Shown here: positions 2,844 through 41,071 of the stretch, piece by piece
Layout of the letters: each line of letters begins with the position of its first letter
How positions within the stretch are numbered: the stretch's first letter is position 1
Assembly (NCBI RefSeq): GCF_900105255.1
Contig: NZ_LT629763.1
Coordinates: 1,054,001 to 1,118,000, forward strand
Reading direction: 5' to 3'
DNA from: Halopseudomonas sabulinigri
GTDB taxonomy: Bacteria; Pseudomonadota; Gammaproteobacteria; Pseudomonadales; Pseudomonadaceae
Length of the DNA stretch: 64,000 nt
Notes under the pieces: model-generated
What the model was told of the DNA's origin: nothing
What the model saw: only the letters and a program-made list of their open reading frames with translations
Databases searched by the model: none
Translations under genes and position numbers: made by a program

Positions 2844-4422
2844 GGCCGCGATCCCCGAACAGGAGATTCCGCCACCCGGCAGACGCGACTGGATCGCCCT
2901 GCTGAGCGCGATTCTGGGCGCCTTCATGGCGATTCTGGACATTCAGATCATCAACTCGTCGCTGAAGGATATTCAGGGCGCGCTCTCGGCCACCATCGAA
3001 GAAGGTTCGTGGATTTCCACCTCGTATCTGGTCGCCGAGATCATCATCATCCCCCTGGCTGCCTGGCTGACCACCATATTTTCGCCACGGCGTTTTGCCG
3101 TGGGTATCTCGACCCTGTTCGTGATTGCCTCCCTGCTCTGCTCCATGGCCTGGAACCTGGAAAGCATGATCGCGTTCCGCGCTCTGCAGGGCCTCGCCGG
3201 CGGCGCGCTGATTCCCTTTGCCTTTACCCTGATTCTGACCAAGCTGCCGCCGGCTTCGCGCCCCAAGGGCATGGCCATGTTCGCGATTACCGCGACCTTC
3301 GCCCCCTCCATCGGCCCCACCATTGGTGGCTGGCTGACCGAGAACTTCGGCTGGGAATACATCTTCTACATCAATATCGTGCCCGGCATCCTGATGGCCA
3401 GCGGCCTGATGTATGGCCTGGACAAGGCAGCGCCGCGCTGGGAATTGCTGCGCCAGGGTGATTACTGGGGCATCGCCACCATGGCGGCCGGTCTGGGTTG
3501 CCTGCAAGTGTTCCTTGAAGAAGGCCACCGCGAAGACTGGTTCGAGTCCAGCAGCATGGTTACCCTGGCGGTGATCTCCTTTATCAGCCTGGTGTGCTTT
3601 ATCATCCTGCAGCTGTCGCGGCCAAATCCTTTGGTGAACCTGCGGCTGCTGAAAGAGCGCAACTTCCTGTTTGGCAGCCTGGCCAACATCGGCCTGGGTG
3701 TGGGCCTGTACGGCACGGTGTTCGTGTTGCCGGTGTACCTGGCGCAGATTCAGCAGTACAACGCCCTGCAGATTGGTCAGGTGATCATGTGGATGGGCTT
3801 TCCGCAGCTGCTGATCATTCCGCTGGTGCCGATTCTGATGAAGTTTGTCGATGCGCGATTTATCTGCGCGACCGGCTTTTTCCTGTTCGCCTTCGCCAGT
3901 TTTTTCAGCGGTAGCCTGAATCTCGATTTTGCCGGCGATCAGTTTATCGCCATCCAGATTTTCCGTGCCTTCGGCCAGCCGATGGTGCTGGTGCCCATGT
4001 CGATCCTGGCCACGGCGATGATTCCGCCCTCGCAGGCCGGTTCTGCGTCCAGTCTCTACAACATTCTGCGCAACCTGGGCGGCGCCATCGGCATCGCGGC
4101 GCTGGCAACCATTCTGGATAGCCGGGCCAAGCATTACTACGAGATATTGCGCGAGAACATAACCCCCGGTAACCCGGCATTCAGCGAGCGTATGAGCGCG
4201 CTGACGGCGCGTCTGGGCAACGAACAAAGCGCCTTCCAGATGCTCAGCAATCAGGTACATCAGCAAGCCAGCATCATGGCCTTCAACGATGCCTTCCACC
4301 TTATCGCCATCATGCTGGGCTGCTCCATGGTGTTTGTCTTGCTGACTCGCGCCATTCCCAAACCGGTTGCGGCCAAACCCGCCGGCGACAGCCCCGACAG
4401 CGTCGAACCGGCTCATCCCTGA
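2836..4422 (+). CDS. DHA2-family MFS multidrug efflux permease (EmrB-like)
   Basis: Proton-driven exporter of the 14-transmembrane-helix DHA2 (EmrB/QacA) family, 528 residues, acting in the inner membrane with the preceding HlyD protein. Visible signatures are the acidic helix 1 segment (AILGAFMAILDIQIINSSL), motif C (ATFAPSIGPTIGGWL) and the EmrB-like QPMVLVPMSILATAM stretch. The start is a GTG inside the last codons of the upstream gene, giving an 8-bp overlap. The C-terminus is hydrophilic and proline-rich. No outer-membrane TolC partner is adjacent, so a shared one is presumably used. Substrate unknown. Confidence 0.92.
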   Translation: MAEAAIPEQEIPPPGRRDWIALLSAILGAFMAILDIQIINSSLKDIQGALSATIEEGSWISTSYLVAEIIIIPLAAWLTTIFSPRRFAVGISTLFVIASLLCSMAWNLESMIAFRALQGLAGGALIPFAFTLILTKLPPASRPKGMAMFAITATFAPSIGPTIGGWLTENFGWEYIFYINIVPGILMASGLMYGLDKAAPRWELLRQGDYWGIATMAAGLGCLQVFLEEGHREDWFESSSMVTLAVISFISLVCFIILQLSRPNPLVNLRLLKERNFLFGSLANIGLGVGLYGTVFVLPVYLAQIQQYNALQIGQVIMWMGFPQLLIIPLVPILMKFVDARFICATGFFLFAFASFFSGSLNLDFAGDQFIAIQIFRAFGQPMVLVPMSILATAMIPPSQAGSASSLYNILRNLGGAIGIAALATILDSRAKHYYEILRENITPGNPAFSERMSALTARLGNEQSAFQMLSNQVHQQASIMAFNDAFHLIAIMLGCSMVFVLLTRAIPKPVAAKPAGDSPDSVEPAHP

Positions 4423-35444: not shown

Positions 35445-36509
35445 TCAGTAGCCACGTGAGATGGCGCGCACGTGGCACGTTACCTCTTCGCGATCGGTGT
35501 ACAGCTGCTTGCAGGCGATTTCTGCCTTGACGCCCGCCTCGTCGAGCGCATCCTGAATGTGCTCCAGACATTGCATCACTTCCTGATAGCGGCGCTTCAT
35601 CGGCAACTTGAAGTTGATGATGACTTCGCGGCACAGGCGTTGACCAATCCACTTGGACACCAGCGCGCTGCTGCGCGCGGGCTTGTCGACAATATCGCAG
35701 ACCATCCAGTCGACCGTGTACTTGGGCTTGTACAGGTAGCCGTCGGCCTGCACGTGCTCCACTTGCCCGCTGTCCATCAGCTTGCGGTCCATTGGGCCGT
35801 TATCCACCGCGATGACGTTCATCAGCCGGTTGACCAGTTGCCAGGTCCAGCCGCCGGGGGCTGCGCCCAAGTCGACCGCCGTCATGCCGGCTTTCAGGCG
35901 GCTATCCCAATCATCGCGCGGAATAAAGTGGTGCCAGGCTTCTTCCAGCTTCAAGGTAGAGCGGCTGGGCGCATCCTTGGGTACGCGCAGGCGCGGAATA
36001 CCCATGGGCCAGGGCGCGGCGTTATCTGCCCAGGACCAGCCAACGAACACCCGCTGACCACTCTCAAAGCACAGATGCAGGCGCGGCAGTTCGGGTTTGT
36101 TCGGGCGCACGAAGCGGGTCTTGGTAAGCGAGCGTTCGAGCGGTGCGCGCAATTTCTTGGTCAGCGCGGCCATTGATTTACCGTCGTTAGTATCGGCCGT
36201 CTCCAGCCACAGCTGCGACGCGATGGGCCCCTGTGCGCAGGCGGTGATAATCGGGGTAATGCGATCTTCCGGATCGACGTCCAACCAGCTGCCTACTGCC
36301 CATTGGCGAGCGAAGATCAGATGACTGAAGGGAATGACTTGCATCAGTTGCTCAGCGTCGCCTGCCTGCGGGCAGACGAAGCGCACCAAGGCTGCGCCGT
36401 CCTGCGCTACGGCATAACCGGCGATGCCCTGCTCGGCTGCCAGCTCCTGCATTTCTGCAGCGGCTTCCCCTTCAAAACCTGGACGACAATGTAGCAACAG
36501 TTCCTGCAT
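35445..36509 (-). CDS. rlmM: 23S rRNA 2'-O-ribose C2498 methyltransferase RlmM
   Basis: 354 residues. An N-terminal THUMP-like RNA-binding part (about 1-170) is followed by a Rossmann methyltransferase domain with the SAM motif AVDLGAAPGGWTWQL (about 215-230), the catalytic lysine region MVCDIVDKPARSSAL and FKLPMKRRY. Methylates C2498 in 23S rRNA. All catalytic residues appear present. Divergent from mesX, with which it shares a 294-bp intergenic region. Confidence 0.94.
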   Translation of the reverse strand: MQELLLHCRPGFEGEAAAEMQELAAEQGIAGYAVAQDGAALVRFVCPQAGDAEQLMQVIPFSHLIFARQWAVGSWLDVDPEDRITPIITACAQGPIASQLWLETADTNDGKSMAALTKKLRAPLERSLTKTRFVRPNKPELPRLHLCFESGQRVFVGWSWADNAAPWPMGIPRLRVPKDAPSRSTLKLEEAWHHFIPRDDWDSRLKAGMTAVDLGAAPGGWTWQLVNRLMNVIAVDNGPMDRKLMDSGQVEHVQADGYLYKPKYTVDWMVCDIVDKPARSSALVSKWIGQRLCREVIINFKLPMKRRYQEVMQCLEHIQDALDEAGVKAEIACKQLYTDREEVTCHVRAISRGY

Positions 36510-36665
36510 GACACGCTCCCGCTCGATGACCGGCCGCTACTCTACAGGCTGCCGAGGCCTGGTTGAAGTGCCGCCGGACTGATTCACGCGCCATTATGAA
36601 TACCCGCCTGCGTGGCCCGTCCTGCGCAGGACGAAAAACCCCCATGAATACTTCTAATGTTTCTT

Positions 36666-36678
36666 TGAAAATAGTTCA
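36666..36678. promoter_or_regulatory. MetR-type operator TGAA-N5-TTCA upstream of mesX
   Basis: The sequence TGAAAATAGTTCA is a perfect match to the MetR consensus TGAA-N5-TTCA known from met promoters of enteric bacteria. Its centre (36672) lies 35 bp before the -10-like TACAAT at 36704, so about -44 relative to a plausible start of transcription, where an activator would contact RNA polymerase. The likely regulator, MetR, is encoded at 39529. Confidence 0.65.
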
Positions 36679-36703
36679 CTTTTTCTCAAGTTAATCCTCT
36701 ACC

Positions 36704-36709
36704 TACAAT
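36704..36709 (+). promoter_or_regulatory. Candidate -10 element of the mesX promoter
   Basis: TACAAT matches the sigma-70 -10 consensus in five of six positions. The -35 position 16-18 bp upstream is T-rich and poor, which is expected for an activator-dependent promoter next to a MetR box. Confidence 0.4.
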
Positions 36710-36803
36710 GCATACCGTCCCTAGCCGCTGACCCAGTTGGCTAGCCCGCGTGACTGTGAAGCAGCGTCACGCGACACCTAAAACATCAGGACACTCGAGA
36801 GCG

Positions 36804-37787
36804 ATGAACACTGACTTTACCTTTGCCATCAAACACCTGCGCTTCGACGAGGATTATTGTCCCGCCGATAACACGCGTATCACCACCAATTTTGCCAACC
36901 TGGCCAGAGGCGAAAGCCGTCAGCAAAACCTGCGCAATACGCTCGCGATGATCAACAACCGTTTCAACGCGCTGGCCCAGTGGGACAACCCCACGGCCGA
37001 CCGTTACGCGGTCGAGCTTGAAATCATTTCCGTCGAGCTGCTGCTGGACGCCAGCGGCCGTGGCAATAGCTTCCCGGCCATTGAAGTACTCAAAACCTAT
37101 ATTGTTGACCGCAAAACCAACCAGCGCATTGACGGCATCGTCGGCAATAACTTTTCCTCCTACGTGCGGGACTATGATTTCAGCGTGCTGCTGCTCGATC
37201 ACAACAAGGGTCTGCCTGCGTTCAGCGTTCCAGACAACTTCGGCGAGCTGCACGGCCAACTGTTCCAGCACTTCATCAACTCGGCGACCTACAAACAGCA
37301 TTTCAGCAAGCCACCGGTGGTCTGTCTCAGCGTGTCGGACAACAAGGTTTACCAGCGCACAGACAACCAGCACCCGGTGCTGGGCTTTGAGTATCAGCCT
37401 AACGAGTCGTCCTTGACGGAGCAGTATTTCAAGAAAATGGGGCTCCAGGTTCGCTACTTCATGCCGCCGGGTAGTGCCGCCCCGCTGGCTTTCTATTTCT
37501 TCGGCGACCTGCTGAATGACTACACCAATCTTGAGCTGATCAGCACCATCAGCACGATGGAGACGTTCCAAAAGATCTATCGGCCCGAGATTTACAACGC
37601 CAACGCGCCGGCCGGGCCATGCTACCAGCCCAACCTGAAAAACCAGGATCACTCACTGACGCAGATCGTCTATGACCGAACAGAGCGTAGCCAGCTGGCT
37701 ATTGAGCAGGGGCGCTTTGCCGAGGAACAGTTCATCAAGCCGTACCAGCACGTGCTTGAGCAATGGTCTGCCAGCCACGCCAACTAA
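36804..37787 (+). CDS. mesX: MesX (DUF1852), partner of methionine synthase MesD
   Basis: 327 residues, DUF1852, starting MNTDFTFAIKHLRFDEDY. No signal peptide or transmembrane helix. This family is known as MesX, needed together with the core methionine synthase MesD and oxygen for methionine formation independent of folate. Its chemistry is not established. Conserved-looking blocks include FPAIEVLKTYIVDRKT, GNNFSSYVRDYDFSVLLLDHN and CYQPNLKNQDHSLTQIVYDRTERS. The ATG at 36804 follows GAGAG. The mesD gene follows after 20 bp, so the two form an operon, and a MetR-type box lies 126 bp upstream. Confidence 0.88.
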   Translation: MNTDFTFAIKHLRFDEDYCPADNTRITTNFANLARGESRQQNLRNTLAMINNRFNALAQWDNPTADRYAVELEIISVELLLDASGRGNSFPAIEVLKTYIVDRKTNQRIDGIVGNNFSSYVRDYDFSVLLLDHNKGLPAFSVPDNFGELHGQLFQHFINSATYKQHFSKPPVVCLSVSDNKVYQRTDNQHPVLGFEYQPNESSLTEQYFKKMGLQVRYFMPPGSAAPLAFYFFGDLLNDYTNLELISTISTMETFQKIYRPEIYNANAPAGPCYQPNLKNQDHSLTQIVYDRTERSQLAIEQGRFAEEQFIKPYQHVLEQWSASHAN

Positions 37788-37807
37788 AACCGATACGAGC
37801 CTTTATC

Positions 37808-38836
37808 ATGAGAAAACTGCTACCAACCTCGACAGCCGGCAGCCTGCCGAAACCGGCCTGGCTGGCTGAGCCCGAAACGCTATGGTCACCCTGGAAGCTG
37901 CAGGGCGAGGCATTGCTTGAAGGTAAGCAAGACGCCTTGCGCGTCTCACTGCAGGAACAGCTGCAGGCCGGCATCGACATCGTCAGCGACGGCGAGCAAA
38001 CGCGCCAGCACTTTGTCACGACCTTTATCGAGCATCTCGATGGGGTTGATTTCGAGCAACGCGAAACAGTCAGAATCCGCGATCGCTACGACGCCAGCGT
38101 GCCCACGGTGGTCGGCGCTGTAGCACGACAGAAGCCGGTCTTTGTTGAAGACGCGAAGTTCATGCGCCAGCAAACCAGCCAGCCGATCAAGTGGGCCCTG
38201 CCAGGGCCGATGACGATGATCGACACCCTGTACGACGCGCACTACAAAAGCCGCGAAAAACTTGCCTGGGAATTTGCCCAGATTCTCAATCAGGAGGCCC
38301 GAGAGCTGGAAGCGGCGGGCGTGGATATCATCCAGTTTGATGAGCCGGCCTTTAATGTGTTCTTCGATGAGGTCAACGATTGGGGCGTTGCGACCCTGGA
38401 GCGGGCCATCGAAGGCCTGAAATGCGAGACCGCCGTGCATATCTGCTACGGCTACGGCATTAAGGCCAACACCGATTGGAAAAAGACCCTCGGCGCCGAG
38501 TGGCGCCAGTATGAAGAGGCGTTCCCCAAGCTGCAGCAATCCAAGATCGGCATGGTCTCGCTGGAATGCCACAACGCCCACGTACCCATGGAGCTGATCG
38601 AGCTGATTCGCGGCAAGAAAGTCATGGTCGGCGCCATTGATGTGGCTAACCATGCGGTCGAGACGCCCGAGGAAGTCGCCAACACCCTGCGCAAGGCGCT
38701 GCAGTTTGTGGATGCCGACAAACTCTATCCCTGCACCAATTGCGGCATGGCGCCGCTGCCGCGTGCGGTTGCCCGCGGCAAGCTGAATGCGCTGGCCGCC
38801 GGAGCCGAGATCGTCCGCCAGGAACTGCTGGCCTGA
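37808..38836 (+). CDS. mesD: MesD, core (MetE-like) methionine synthase
   Basis: 342 residues, corresponding to only the C-terminal catalytic barrel of MetE; the folate-binding N-terminal half is absent. The zinc ligands are recognisable: His211 and Cys213 in AVHICYGYG, Glu253 in VSLECHNA and Cys312 in TNCGMAPL. DEPAF supplies the substrate-site acid. The flanking DUF1852 gene identifies it as the MesD type, which needs oxygen and MesX; the methyl donor is unsettled. The ATG at 37808 begins MRKLLPTSTAGSLPKPAWL, the usual opening of this family. A flavin reductase gene follows after 82 bp. Confidence 0.88.
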   Translation: MRKLLPTSTAGSLPKPAWLAEPETLWSPWKLQGEALLEGKQDALRVSLQEQLQAGIDIVSDGEQTRQHFVTTFIEHLDGVDFEQRETVRIRDRYDASVPTVVGAVARQKPVFVEDAKFMRQQTSQPIKWALPGPMTMIDTLYDAHYKSREKLAWEFAQILNQEARELEAAGVDIIQFDEPAFNVFFDEVNDWGVATLERAIEGLKCETAVHICYGYGIKANTDWKKTLGAEWRQYEEAFPKLQQSKIGMVSLECHNAHVPMELIELIRGKKVMVGAIDVANHAVETPEEVANTLRKALQFVDADKLYPCTNCGMAPLPRAVARGKLNALAAGAEIVRQELLA

Positions 38837-38918
38837 CGAAGGGCAGCGCCGCGCGTTCAGGCGCCGCCTTCCACCCACGCCGGCAGGCTGCCGGTCGCAG
38901 TATGCTACAGGATCGACT

Positions 38919-39428
38919 ATGACCCGCCCCACCTCGGTAATTGAACCGCTGAGCTTTCGCGAAGCCCTTGGGCATTACGCCTCCGGCATCACCGTGATCA
39001 CTTCACAGGTCGACGGCGAACCGCTTGGTTTCACCTGCCAGTCGTTCTATAGCGTCTCAATGAGCCCGCCGCTGGTCTCATTCAGCGTCATGGCCAACGC
39101 CTACAGCTACCCAAAGATTCGGCGCGCTGGCCGCTTTGCAGTGAATGTGCTGTCCGGCGAGCAGGCGCATATCTCGAACCAGTTTGCCAGCCGGGGTAGT
39201 GACAAATGGCACGCTGTTGACTGGCAGACCTCACCCCTGGGTAATCCCGTCATAACTGGCAGCCTGCACTGGTTTGATTGCGAGATTCACGCCGAGCACG
39301 CCGCCGGTGACCACCTGATCGTGGTTGGTGAGGTGAAAGCCTTGAGCCGGCAGAGCCCGGCCGTGACGCAGCCGCTGCTGTATTTCAAAGGTCGTTATTG
39401 CAACCTGGCGGCGCACCAGCCGATCTGA
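38919..39428 (+). CDS. Flavin reductase (FMN-binding split barrel)
   Basis: 169 residues of the HpaC/flavin reductase-like domain: ALGHYASGITVITSQVDGEPLGFTCQSFYSVSMSPPLVSFSV, with RFAVNVLSGEQAHISNQFAS and a C-terminal PLLYFKGRYCNL. Such proteins use NAD(P)H to make reduced FMN for oxygen-using partner enzymes. Its position directly after mesX-mesD and before metR suggests that it feeds reduced flavin to the oxygen-dependent MesXD reaction; this is inference. The ATG at 38919 has AGGA 6 bp upstream. Confidence 0.85.
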   Translation: MTRPTSVIEPLSFREALGHYASGITVITSQVDGEPLGFTCQSFYSVSMSPPLVSFSVMANAYSYPKIRRAGRFAVNVLSGEQAHISNQFASRGSDKWHAVDWQTSPLGNPVITGSLHWFDCEIHAEHAAGDHLIVVGEVKALSRQSPAVTQPLLYFKGRYCNLAAHQPI

Positions 39429-39528
39429 CGTACCGGCTGCTCACCTGCTAACGTAACGGGCCAGCACCTGAATCAGGCTCATCTGCTGCATGCTATAGTT
39501 CAACTTTCCTCATACAGCCGGGCCTGCC

Positions 39529-40452
39529 ATGCTTGAAATCCGCCACCTGCGCACCCTCAGCACCCTGCGCGACGCCGAAAGCCTGGTCGAGGCTGCCGAG
39601 CGCTTGCATCTCACCCAGTCGGCCCTGTCGCATCAACTGAAGGATCTGGAAGAGAAGCTCGGTATGAGCCTGTTTGTGCGCAAAAGCAAACCGGTGCGCT
39701 TCACCAGCGCCGGGCTGCGTCTGTTACGGCTGGCCGACAGCGTGCTACCGCAACTGCGGCAGGCGGAACGGGATATTCAGCGCCTGGCGGGCGGCCAGGC
39801 CGGACGCCTGCACATGGCTATCGAGTGCCACAGCTGTTTTCAGTGGCTGATGCCAACCATTGATCAGTTCCGCAACGCCTGGCCGGATGTAGAAGTCGAC
39901 TTTGCCTCGGGTTTTTTCTTCGCCCCGCTGCCGGCACTGGCCCGCGGCGACCTGGACCTGGTCGTCACCTCCGACCCGCTGGACATTGCCGGCATCAGCT
40001 ACGTGCCACTGTTCACCTACGAAGCCCTGCTGGCCGTCAGCAACCAGCATCCCCTGGCGGCGCAGAGCTACGTGCGCCCCGAGGATCTGGCCAGTGAAAC
40101 CCTGATCAGCTACCCAGTCGATCGTGATAGGCTGGATGTGTTCAAGCACTTCCTCGACCCTGCCGGCATCGAACCCGCGAGTTTGCGCACCGCCGAGATG
40201 ACCGTGATGATGATGCAGTTGGTCGCCTCGGGCCGCGGCGTCTGCTGCCTGCCCAACTGGGCCATGGCCGAGTATCTGCACAAGGGCTACGTGAGCGCGC
40301 GCAAGCTGGGGTCTGAGGGGCTATTTGGCACGCTTTACGCGGCGGTGCGTGAGGACATGCTGGAGATGTCGTATCTGCAGGACTTTTTGCTGACGGCGAA
40401 GGATACGTCCTTTGCGACGCTTGAAGGGGTGAGTGCCAAGCGGAGTGAGTGA
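39529..40452 (+). CDS. metR: LysR-family methionine regulator MetR
   Basis: 307 residues, close in pattern to enterobacterial MetR: MLEIRHLRTLSTLRDAESLV, QSALSHQLKDLEEKLGMSLFVRKSKP, and the effector-domain signatures AIECHSCFQWLMPTIDQF, DLVVTSDPLDIAGISY and ASETLISYPVDRDRLDVFKHFL. MetR senses homocysteine and activates late methionine genes. A consensus box lies upstream of mesX, so the cluster probably encodes its own regulator. A single TTCA half-site precedes this gene at 39499-39502. Confidence 0.92.
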   Translation: MLEIRHLRTLSTLRDAESLVEAAERLHLTQSALSHQLKDLEEKLGMSLFVRKSKPVRFTSAGLRLLRLADSVLPQLRQAERDIQRLAGGQAGRLHMAIECHSCFQWLMPTIDQFRNAWPDVEVDFASGFFFAPLPALARGDLDLVVTSDPLDIAGISYVPLFTYEALLAVSNQHPLAAQSYVRPEDLASETLISYPVDRDRLDVFKHFLDPAGIEPASLRTAEMTVMMMQLVASGRGVCCLPNWAMAEYLHKGYVSARKLGSEGLFGTLYAAVREDMLEMSYLQDFLLTAKDTSFATLEGVSAKRSE

Positions 40453-40473
40453 TCCCCTCTCACGCGAATCTCC

Positions 40474-40534
40474 GTAGGGCGGGTAACGCCAGAGACTTGC
40501 CACAATGGTGAATGGCTTCGGCCATCCACCCTAC
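40474..40534. repeat. REP-like hairpin after metR
   Basis: Outer arms GTAGGGCGG and CCACCCTAC enclose an inner stem GGTGAATGGC-TTCG-GCCATCCACC with a TTCG loop and one mismatch. ATTTTT follows at 40535, so it may also end metR transcription. The CCGTAGGGCG start recurs at 12100-12109, which marks it as a dispersed element. Confidence 0.6.
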
Positions 40535-40575
40535 ATTTTTGGCGGTCTTCAAGCGTGGTGTTTAGCTCACTATCG

Positions 40576-41071
40576 CTTTCGCCTCTAGGCGAGTCAGGGG
40601 GAGATGCTTGCCCATCGCCCCCTAACAACCCCCTCGGGAACCCAGCTGCGCGGCCCTGCGGGTTCGCTGCGTTGCTCAATCTGCCGGGGGCCCTCGCAAA
40701 CTCGGCGCTACGCACCTCAGACACCGCGAGGACCTTTTTCCCGCCAGCTCTGCGCTACTCGCCCGCTCAGATGGGACTATAAGTCCGTGTCGTTGCTTGT
40801 TTTTGCGTTACTCAATCAAACAATCAAACCTGAAAACCGCAGCGGGGCCTAGCTTTTCGTCCCCTTCCAAGCTGTCGAGTAACGCCGGGATCGAGCGGAA
40901 TAGCGTCGCGAGTTGTCTGAGCGAAGCGAGTTTTCGTGCGGCCGGCGAGGCGACGCCGCTCGGCGCCGAGTAACGCAGAGAAGCCGCAGGCCAGCTTAGT
41001 GGGGTGGACTTTTTTTTGGTTACTTTTGTTTGGCCAAACAAACAAAAGTGACTCGCCGGCAAAGGCGAAAG
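40576..41071. mobile_element. Non-coding element with ~20-bp inverted terminal repeats (MITE-like)
   Basis: The left end (40576-40595) read on the minus strand is GACTCGCC-TAG-AGGCGAAAG; the right end (41050-41071) on the plus strand is GACTCGCC-N5-AGGCGAAAG. So 17 of about 20 positions in two blocks match exactly as inverted repeats around 454 bp of non-coding DNA. The interior is GC-rich on the left and T-rich on the right. No transposase and no clear target duplication were seen. It resembles dispersed intergenic elements of pseudomonads, from memory only. Confidence 0.5.

Follow-up and report, generated by a model that had tools for sequence, protein, structure and literature searches.

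A replaceable flavin reductase in the mesX-mesD operon of Halopseudomonas sabulinigri as a probable source of reduced FMN for the MesX-MesD methionine synthase

The operon for the MesX-MesD methionine synthase of Halopseudomonas sabulinigri carries, directly after mesD, the gene for a small flavin reductase, which we regard, with a probability of about 0.7, as a dedicated but replaceable supplier of FMNH2 to MesX-MesD, with MesX likely to use the reduced flavin together with O2. The operon lies in a 64,000-nucleotide stretch of contig NZ_LT629763.1 (positions 1,054,001 to 1,118,000), referred to here as the window. Reduced flavin is probably a reactant of MesXD, because unrelated reduced-flavin enzymes occupy the same operon in other bacteria, and this interchange of FMN reductases from unrelated families is both new and the strongest argument for the flavin reading.

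MesD needs MesX and O2, and neither MetF nor cobalamin, and the pair occurs widely among aerobic bacteria (Price et al., 2021, PMC7857596). The same paper described MesD/MesX as often near a flavin reductase and suggested flavin for MesX; the flavin idea, published in outline in 2021, is hence not new, and neither MsuE nor FMN nor a permease turned up in the main text of that paper. The source of the methyl group of MesD without methyl-folate or B12, and the reason for the O2 need, were left open there (PMC7857596), and in the literature searched we found neither a later answer nor a paper joining at least three of MesD, MesX, TauE, FMN reductase and MetR.

The mesX-mesD-reductase operon in the window

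The window holds mesX (PF08908) and mesD side by side and thus encodes a MesD/MesX methionine synthase like those of Acinetobacter baylyi and Sphingomonas koreensis, in which putative flavin reductases (ACIAD3522 and Ga0059261_2931, respectively) also lie beside mesXD (Price et al., 2021, PMC7857596). The gene order is mesX-mesD-reductase-lysR, all on the forward strand (Table 1), with gaps of 82 bp between mesD and the reductase gene and of 100 bp between the reductase gene and the gene for the LysR-type regulator, and the reductase frame is confirmed as the initial annotation had given it. A simple scan found no terminator-like site in the mesD-reductase gap; this is weak evidence, because the same scan reports no sigma-70-like promoter anywhere in 36500-40600. 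MesD consists of the MetE catalytic domain only, with 3rpd as its PDB relative, and the genome has MetH as well, since a Met_synt_B12 domain lies in a 1274-residue frame elsewhere. Recombination between mesX and mesD was considered and dropped, sliding DNA identity having no clear break; by protein identity, the MesX of the window is nearer to several marine gammaproteobacteria than to some Pseudomonas, and its MesD is nearest to Pseudomonas.

The reductase matches PF01613 (Flavin_Reduct) with 151.1 bits, above the Pfam gathering cut-off of 27, and its nearest solved relative by sequence is 3nfw (7e-42), annotated 'Flavin reductase-like, FMN-binding protein'. The best NCBIfam model is that of HsaB (NF045630), the reductase of HsaA, at 183 bits; the window protein is, like HsaB, a PF01613 flavin reductase, and is unlike it in falling below the curated equivalog cut-off of 230 and in having MesX-MesD as operon partner. 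The HpaC model (TIGR02296) gives 65.6 bits against an equivalog cut-off of 205.95, and the label 'HpaC-like' was dropped, HsaB fitting better. Of the 'HpaC-like flavin reductase between mesD and metR' of the initial annotation, the reductase and its position therefore stand and the two names do not, the LysR-type protein also missing the cut-off of the MetR model, which makes 'metR' a loose name. From its sequence, the gene product is predicted to be an NAD(P)H:flavin oxidoreductase and itself to reduce flavin; a GDH segment (residues 130-132) is invariant in all 20 linked reductases of its subfamily (type 1, below).

Table 1. Features of the operon in the window, and genes for MTHFR-like proteins near mesX in other loci (L numbers)
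Feature	Location	Strand	Description
MetR-type box TGAA-N5-TTCA	36666..36678	+	exact match, 126-138 bp upstream of the mesX start codon
mesX, 327 aa	36804..37787	+	PF08908 'Putative oxygenase MesX' (DUF1852), 609.8 bits
mesD, 342 aa, core methionine synthase	37808..38836	+	NF006589, 699 bits, cut-off 392
Flavin reductase, 169 aa	38919..39428	+	PF01613; mesXD-linked type 1; nearest named model HsaB
LysR-type regulator, MetR-like	39529..40452	+	PRK15421 MetR, 322 bits, cut-off 382
MTHFR-like + DUF5981	L138:8737-10215		after reductase
MTHFR-like + DUF5981	L140:8858-10309		after reductase
MTHFR-like + DUF5981	L165:7758-9209		after reductase
MTHFR-like + DUF5981	L212:7333-8835		after reductase
MTHFR-like + DUF5981	L072, L073, L206/L215		near mesX, other three loci

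Linked reductases recur and are not obligatory

A search for PF08908 was positive in 44 of 398 genomes sampled from the phylum, 3 of 289 genomes of another class (two common to the phylum sample), 9 of 200 genomes of a second order (four common to earlier samples) and 41 of 244 genomes of the window's own order, Pseudomonadales (six common to earlier samples), giving 85 distinct MesX genomes over the four samples. Two broken second copies are excluded from the 85, one of mesX (L045, in genome G082) and one of mesX-mesD-reductase in which mesD and the reductase gene are broken (L193, in G943); in both cases an intact copy is present in the same genome. A larger set of 167 loci comes from overlapping samples and includes both broken copies. 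A further 80 named loci overlap with the genome samples (L125 and L167, for example), so the counts are not summed, and 16 plasmid stretches were hand-picked for spread out of 209 records. 'Linked' means within the analysed stretch, mostly 4-6 kb on each side and less at contig ends. PF01613, MsuE and TauE were detected with home-made profiles, whose PF01613 calls agree with a Pfam search for the first 44 genomes.

A PF01613 reductase gene lies directly after mesD in 18 of the 85 genomes, made up of 3/44 in the phylum sample, 15/41 in the window's own order (two shared with the phylum sample), 3/9 in the second order (one shared) and 0/3 in the other class. Such a gene is linked in 13 of the 80 named loci and in 5 of 18 plasmid or viral-contig loci. 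In the overlapping samples that make up the 167 loci it is linked in 32 (L193 included), every time directly 3' of mesD and on the same strand, with gaps of 13-256 bp in the 31 intact cases. mesD itself is near mesX in 165 of the 167 loci, the two exceptions (L100 and L123, both Pseudoalteromonas luteoviolacea) having no mesD within about 6 kb downstream of mesX. When the longest frame flanking the operon was assigned to Pfam, PF01613 was the most frequent family on the downstream side (18 of 82 frames). The initial annotation had suggested looking for linkage of the reductase with DUF1852 across genomes, and this is indeed found, the unrelated MsuE adding five genomes to those with PF01613. 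Its observation is confirmed, and its interpretation, in print in outline, is partly supported.

The reductase had been proposed as a third component of the MesXD reaction. Recurrent linkage, and the fall of both genes with B12 in A. baumannii (PMC12892962; see below), speak for that role; an obligatory one is rejected. No linked reductase of either family (PF01613 or MsuE) was found in 62 of the 85 MesX genomes, and this low linkage rate is the strongest evidence against an obligatory role. Furthermore, in a whole-genome Pfam search of the first 44 MesX genomes, only 3 of which have a linked PF01613 gene, PF01613 was not matched anywhere in 2 genomes, and a third has a weak match with a stop inside; PF03358 genes are present in all three genomes without a good PF01613 match. 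In E. coli, mesD and mesX alone suffice for complementation, and in the main text on the S. koreensis mutant screen the reductase is not listed with the genes required for methionine (Price et al., 2021, PMC7857596). A strict need for the reductase in cis is excluded, because most loci are without one and the E. coli complementation succeeded without it. E. coli has flavin reductases of its own, PF01613 being present there in a control Pfam search, and presumably mesXD ran on these host enzymes.

Some loci hold other features. On an Acinetobacter venetianus plasmid, a gene for a pyridoxamine-phosphate-oxidase-like flavoprotein (L211:3573-4148) lies upstream of mesX on the same strand, and no flavin reductase was detected at this locus. 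mesX is also present in two IMG/VR contigs (L197, L198) and two records that bear the name Acinetobacter phage (H41, H42), which are possibly host DNA.

Different reductases share the operon

The linked PF01613 reductases comprise an HsaB-like type 1 (20 loci including the window), a RutF/HpaC-like type 2 (11 loci including one broken copy) and a third form seen in a single case, in Rhizobium. Types 1 and 2 hold the same slot with a mean identity of about 26%, against 77% and 66% within the respective subfamilies. The type-1 reductase of the window accordingly differs from the type-2 reductase of Acinetobacter sp. (about 26% identical), a comparison made with locus L153 of Acinetobacter sp. 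and not with the A. baylyi or S. koreensis loci.

Six loci have MsuE, beside mesX, instead of a PF01613 reductase, namely those of five of the 85 genomes and of an Acidovorax plasmid. The TIGR03566 cut-off is passed in all six, the PF01613 gene is absent from the analysed stretch in all six, and in one the MsuE gene lies between mesX and mesD; MsuE was not found in the 80 named loci. MsuE belongs to PF03358, with a Flavodoxin_2 match, and this fold is unrelated to that of PF01613; among the longest reading frames upstream of the operon, PF03358 accounts for 4 of 66 (Pfam). An FMN reductase of one of the two families is thus in the operon in 23 of the 85 genomes, and in these, as in the window, a separate FMN reductase is encoded with a putative oxygenase.

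MsuC, MsuD and SfnG receive their reduced FMN from MsuE (PMC8234197; PMC13352529). These are two-component FMNH2-dependent monooxygenases, and the mesXD operons resemble them in setting an O2-requiring enzyme beside a separate small FMN reductase (PMC8234197); in some mesXD operons, the reductase is the MsuE of the Msu systems itself. Unlike these enzymes, MesX matches its own Pfam family only, and it is assumed to yield a methyl group for homocysteine. Together, the different reductases in one operon point to their common product, reduced flavin, and supply of reduced FMN is the likeliest role because the exchanged reductases have this product in common.

By score, the linked subfamilies are confined to mesXD in one order

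In the order's 244 genomes, 8 reach 318 bits or more with the type-1 profile, each a MesX genome with the hit at mesXD, and the next best score is 177 bits. With the type-2 profile, 7 genomes reach 277 bits or more, each a MesX genome with a linked hit; the edge is less sharp than for type 1, the next scores being 237 (from a MesX genome that has a linked copy besides this unlinked gene) and 231 (a MesX-free genome). Since both profiles were built from linked members, the informative part is the gap in scores; the genomes are also non-independent samples. High-scoring members of type 1 or 2 are present in 15 of 41 MesX genomes and in 0 of 203 others (Fisher P about 2e-13, kinship ignored), and in the second order type 1 is found in 2 of 200 genomes, both of them MesX genomes. 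By score, the two linked PF01613 subfamilies are confined to MesX genomes and to mesXD in the order sampled.

A MesX tree built from 101 loci, 85 of them from the genomes and 16 from plasmids, requires at least 14 changes of reductase state, with a minimum possible of 4; the state is also clustered, since the shuffled mean is 27.9 changes. The window falls in a supported set of 46 rows, 42 of them without a linked reductase. The tree is weak at 47 of 98 inner branches, and reductase gain is indistinguishable from loss on it.

Probable methionine control of the operon

In E. coli, Salmonella and Vibrio, the palindrome TGAA-N5-TTCA is described as the site of MetR (PMC13393422). The window has 2 such boxes against 0.48 expected (at least 2 in 8 of 100 shuffles), the one ahead of mesX and a second exact palindrome at window positions 2963-2975. 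A box lies no more than 400 bp upstream of mesX in 48 of the 167 loci, whereas 50 shuffles gave a mean of 2.3 and a maximum of 7, and five control patterns gave 1-3; it is present in 10 of 20 type-1 loci, 11 of 12 other PF01613-linked loci and 27 of the 135 remaining loci. In A. baumannii, the response to B12 is log2 -8.3 for the DUF1852 gene and log2 -2.5 for the flavin reductase ABUW_3196 (PMC12892962). The MetR-type box and the published B12 response fit one methionine-controlled operon.

Such control could also bring together genes of separate function, and we see a small chance that the reductase, under the same methionine, sulfur or B12 control, serves another flavin-dependent enzyme, for example the sulfonate monooxygenases, the operon being shared for regulation. 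The box ahead of mesX would suit this, as would the linkage in only 23 of 85 genomes and the presence of msuE, sfnG and ssuD genes in the same A. baumannii B12 table (PMC12892962), but the two linked PF01613 subfamilies, by score, are found only at mesXD in the 244 genomes of the order, and at the Acidovorax MsuE locus no monooxygenase besides MesX is annotated within 4.5 kb.

Proposed use of reduced flavin and O2 by MesX

In the scheme that we favor, the reductase would hand reduced FMN to the MesX-MesD methionine synthase, and MesX would take up the reduced flavin and react it with O2. This reaction would break the donor and free a methyl or one-carbon group, which MesD would then move onto zinc-bound homocysteine. 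We infer the use of flavin by MesX rather than MesD, the reaction of O2 at the flavin and everything about the donor. MesX is the likelier flavin user because MesD is a catalytic domain of the MetE type and has a relative of solved structure. The O2 need would be explained if FMNH2 met O2 in MesX, and reduced flavin may be its cause, as the initial annotation had it.

By sequence, MesX matches none of the known flavin-monooxygenase families. All 22 proteins scanned match PF08908 and none a flavin-enzyme Pfam family, the other matches being single-member hits at E 0.024 or worse, and by sequence nothing was found in the PDB. Two AF2 models (pLDDT 71.7 with 59 rows; pLDDT 82.5 and pTM 0.84 with 82 rows) gave no Foldseek match at E 0.001, and their best VIA-align Z scores, 3.6 and 4.1, are under the tool's meaningful level; L125, which has an in-frame stop, was omitted from the structure alignments. 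The best VIA-align row is a weak match to a GNAT acetyltransferase (Z 4.1, rmsd 5.6, 142 aligned), and many weak rows are GNAT or related acetyltransferases over MesX residues of about 3-239, so that a GNAT-like resemblance of the models may serve as a weak lead only. No luciferase-like or acyl-CoA-dehydrogenase-like flavin oxygenase is among the structure matches listed for MesX, which excludes nothing.

It is improbable, in our estimate, that the reduced flavin is instead an electron donor to a metal in MesX, such as ferric iron, and that the metal activates O2. MesX is named merely a putative oxygenase, residues H150, H190, E196 and D235 are invariant or near-invariant, and any flavin reductase would serve, as the swap of families suggests; against this, no metal-oxygenase family was matched by sequence and few His residues are conserved in MesX overall.

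Other neighbors of mesXD

A truncated MTHFR-like protein with DUF5981 is encoded near mesX in 7 of 185 loci, right after the reductase gene in four (Table 1); weak matches in L125 and L167 (E about 1e-9) are excluded from the 7. It resembles ACIAD1783 in the matched part of PF02219. In ThyX and TrmFO, reduced flavin acts on a folate-borne one-carbon unit. That reduced flavin here reduces such a unit to give MesD its methyl group, with an indirect need for O2, is very unlikely: these neighbors would suit it, and 3 of the 74 genomes searched have the MTHFR-like protein, each being a MesX genome with the gene at mesX (interrupted by a stop in one), but metF is dispensable and O2 required (PMC7857596), 3 of 41 MesX against 0 of 33 MesX-free genomes, the latter hand-picked for spread, is not significant (P 0.16), and the window's genome has no MTHFR-like match.

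A TauE/SafE permease (PF01925) is encoded in the mesX locus in 34 of the 85 genomes; the corresponding raw locus counts are 39 of 80 for the named loci and 1 of 18 for those on plasmids or viral contigs. It is commoner near mesXD than the PF01613 reductase (34 against 18 of 85), is found in both reductase-bearing and reductase-free loci (for example L168:7081-7908) and is absent at the locus of the window. Its gene follows mesD, on either strand, or the reductase gene (mesX-mesD-reductase-permease), or lies divergently upstream of mesX, as in Vibrio, Pseudoalteromonas and Shewanella. The permease may export a by-product of the MesX reaction.

QueH, the B12-free counterpart of QueG, is encoded near mesX in 6 of 185 loci (L044, L140, L149, L200, L206 and L212), all with a linked flavin reductase. 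Since QueG is cobalamin-dependent (PMC4646009), these loci may be islands of B12-free enzymes. In G082 (L044:2540-10521), lysR-mesX-msuE-mesD and a queH frame lie between perfect inverted repeats of 1033 bp that contain transposase genes, and this segment resembles a composite transposon with the methionine module as its complete cargo; the queH frame runs into one repeat, matches positions 1-134 of the 175 of the profile only, and may be cut short there. On the Paracoccus aminovorans plasmid L202, the annotation places a formate-tetrahydrofolate ligase about 1.3 kb past mesD.

More tentatively, and rather less likely than FMNH2 supply as such, MesX might be the first of a new FMNH2- and O2-dependent class unlike the known flavin oxygenases, cutting a methyl group from a common metabolite, in a module to which MesD, an exchangeable FMN reductase, a TauE/SafE permease removing an oxidized acid by-product and MetR control are added. 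MesXD lets bacteria make methionine without vitamin B12, and the permease and the other neighbors offer a few leads to the donor and the by-product.
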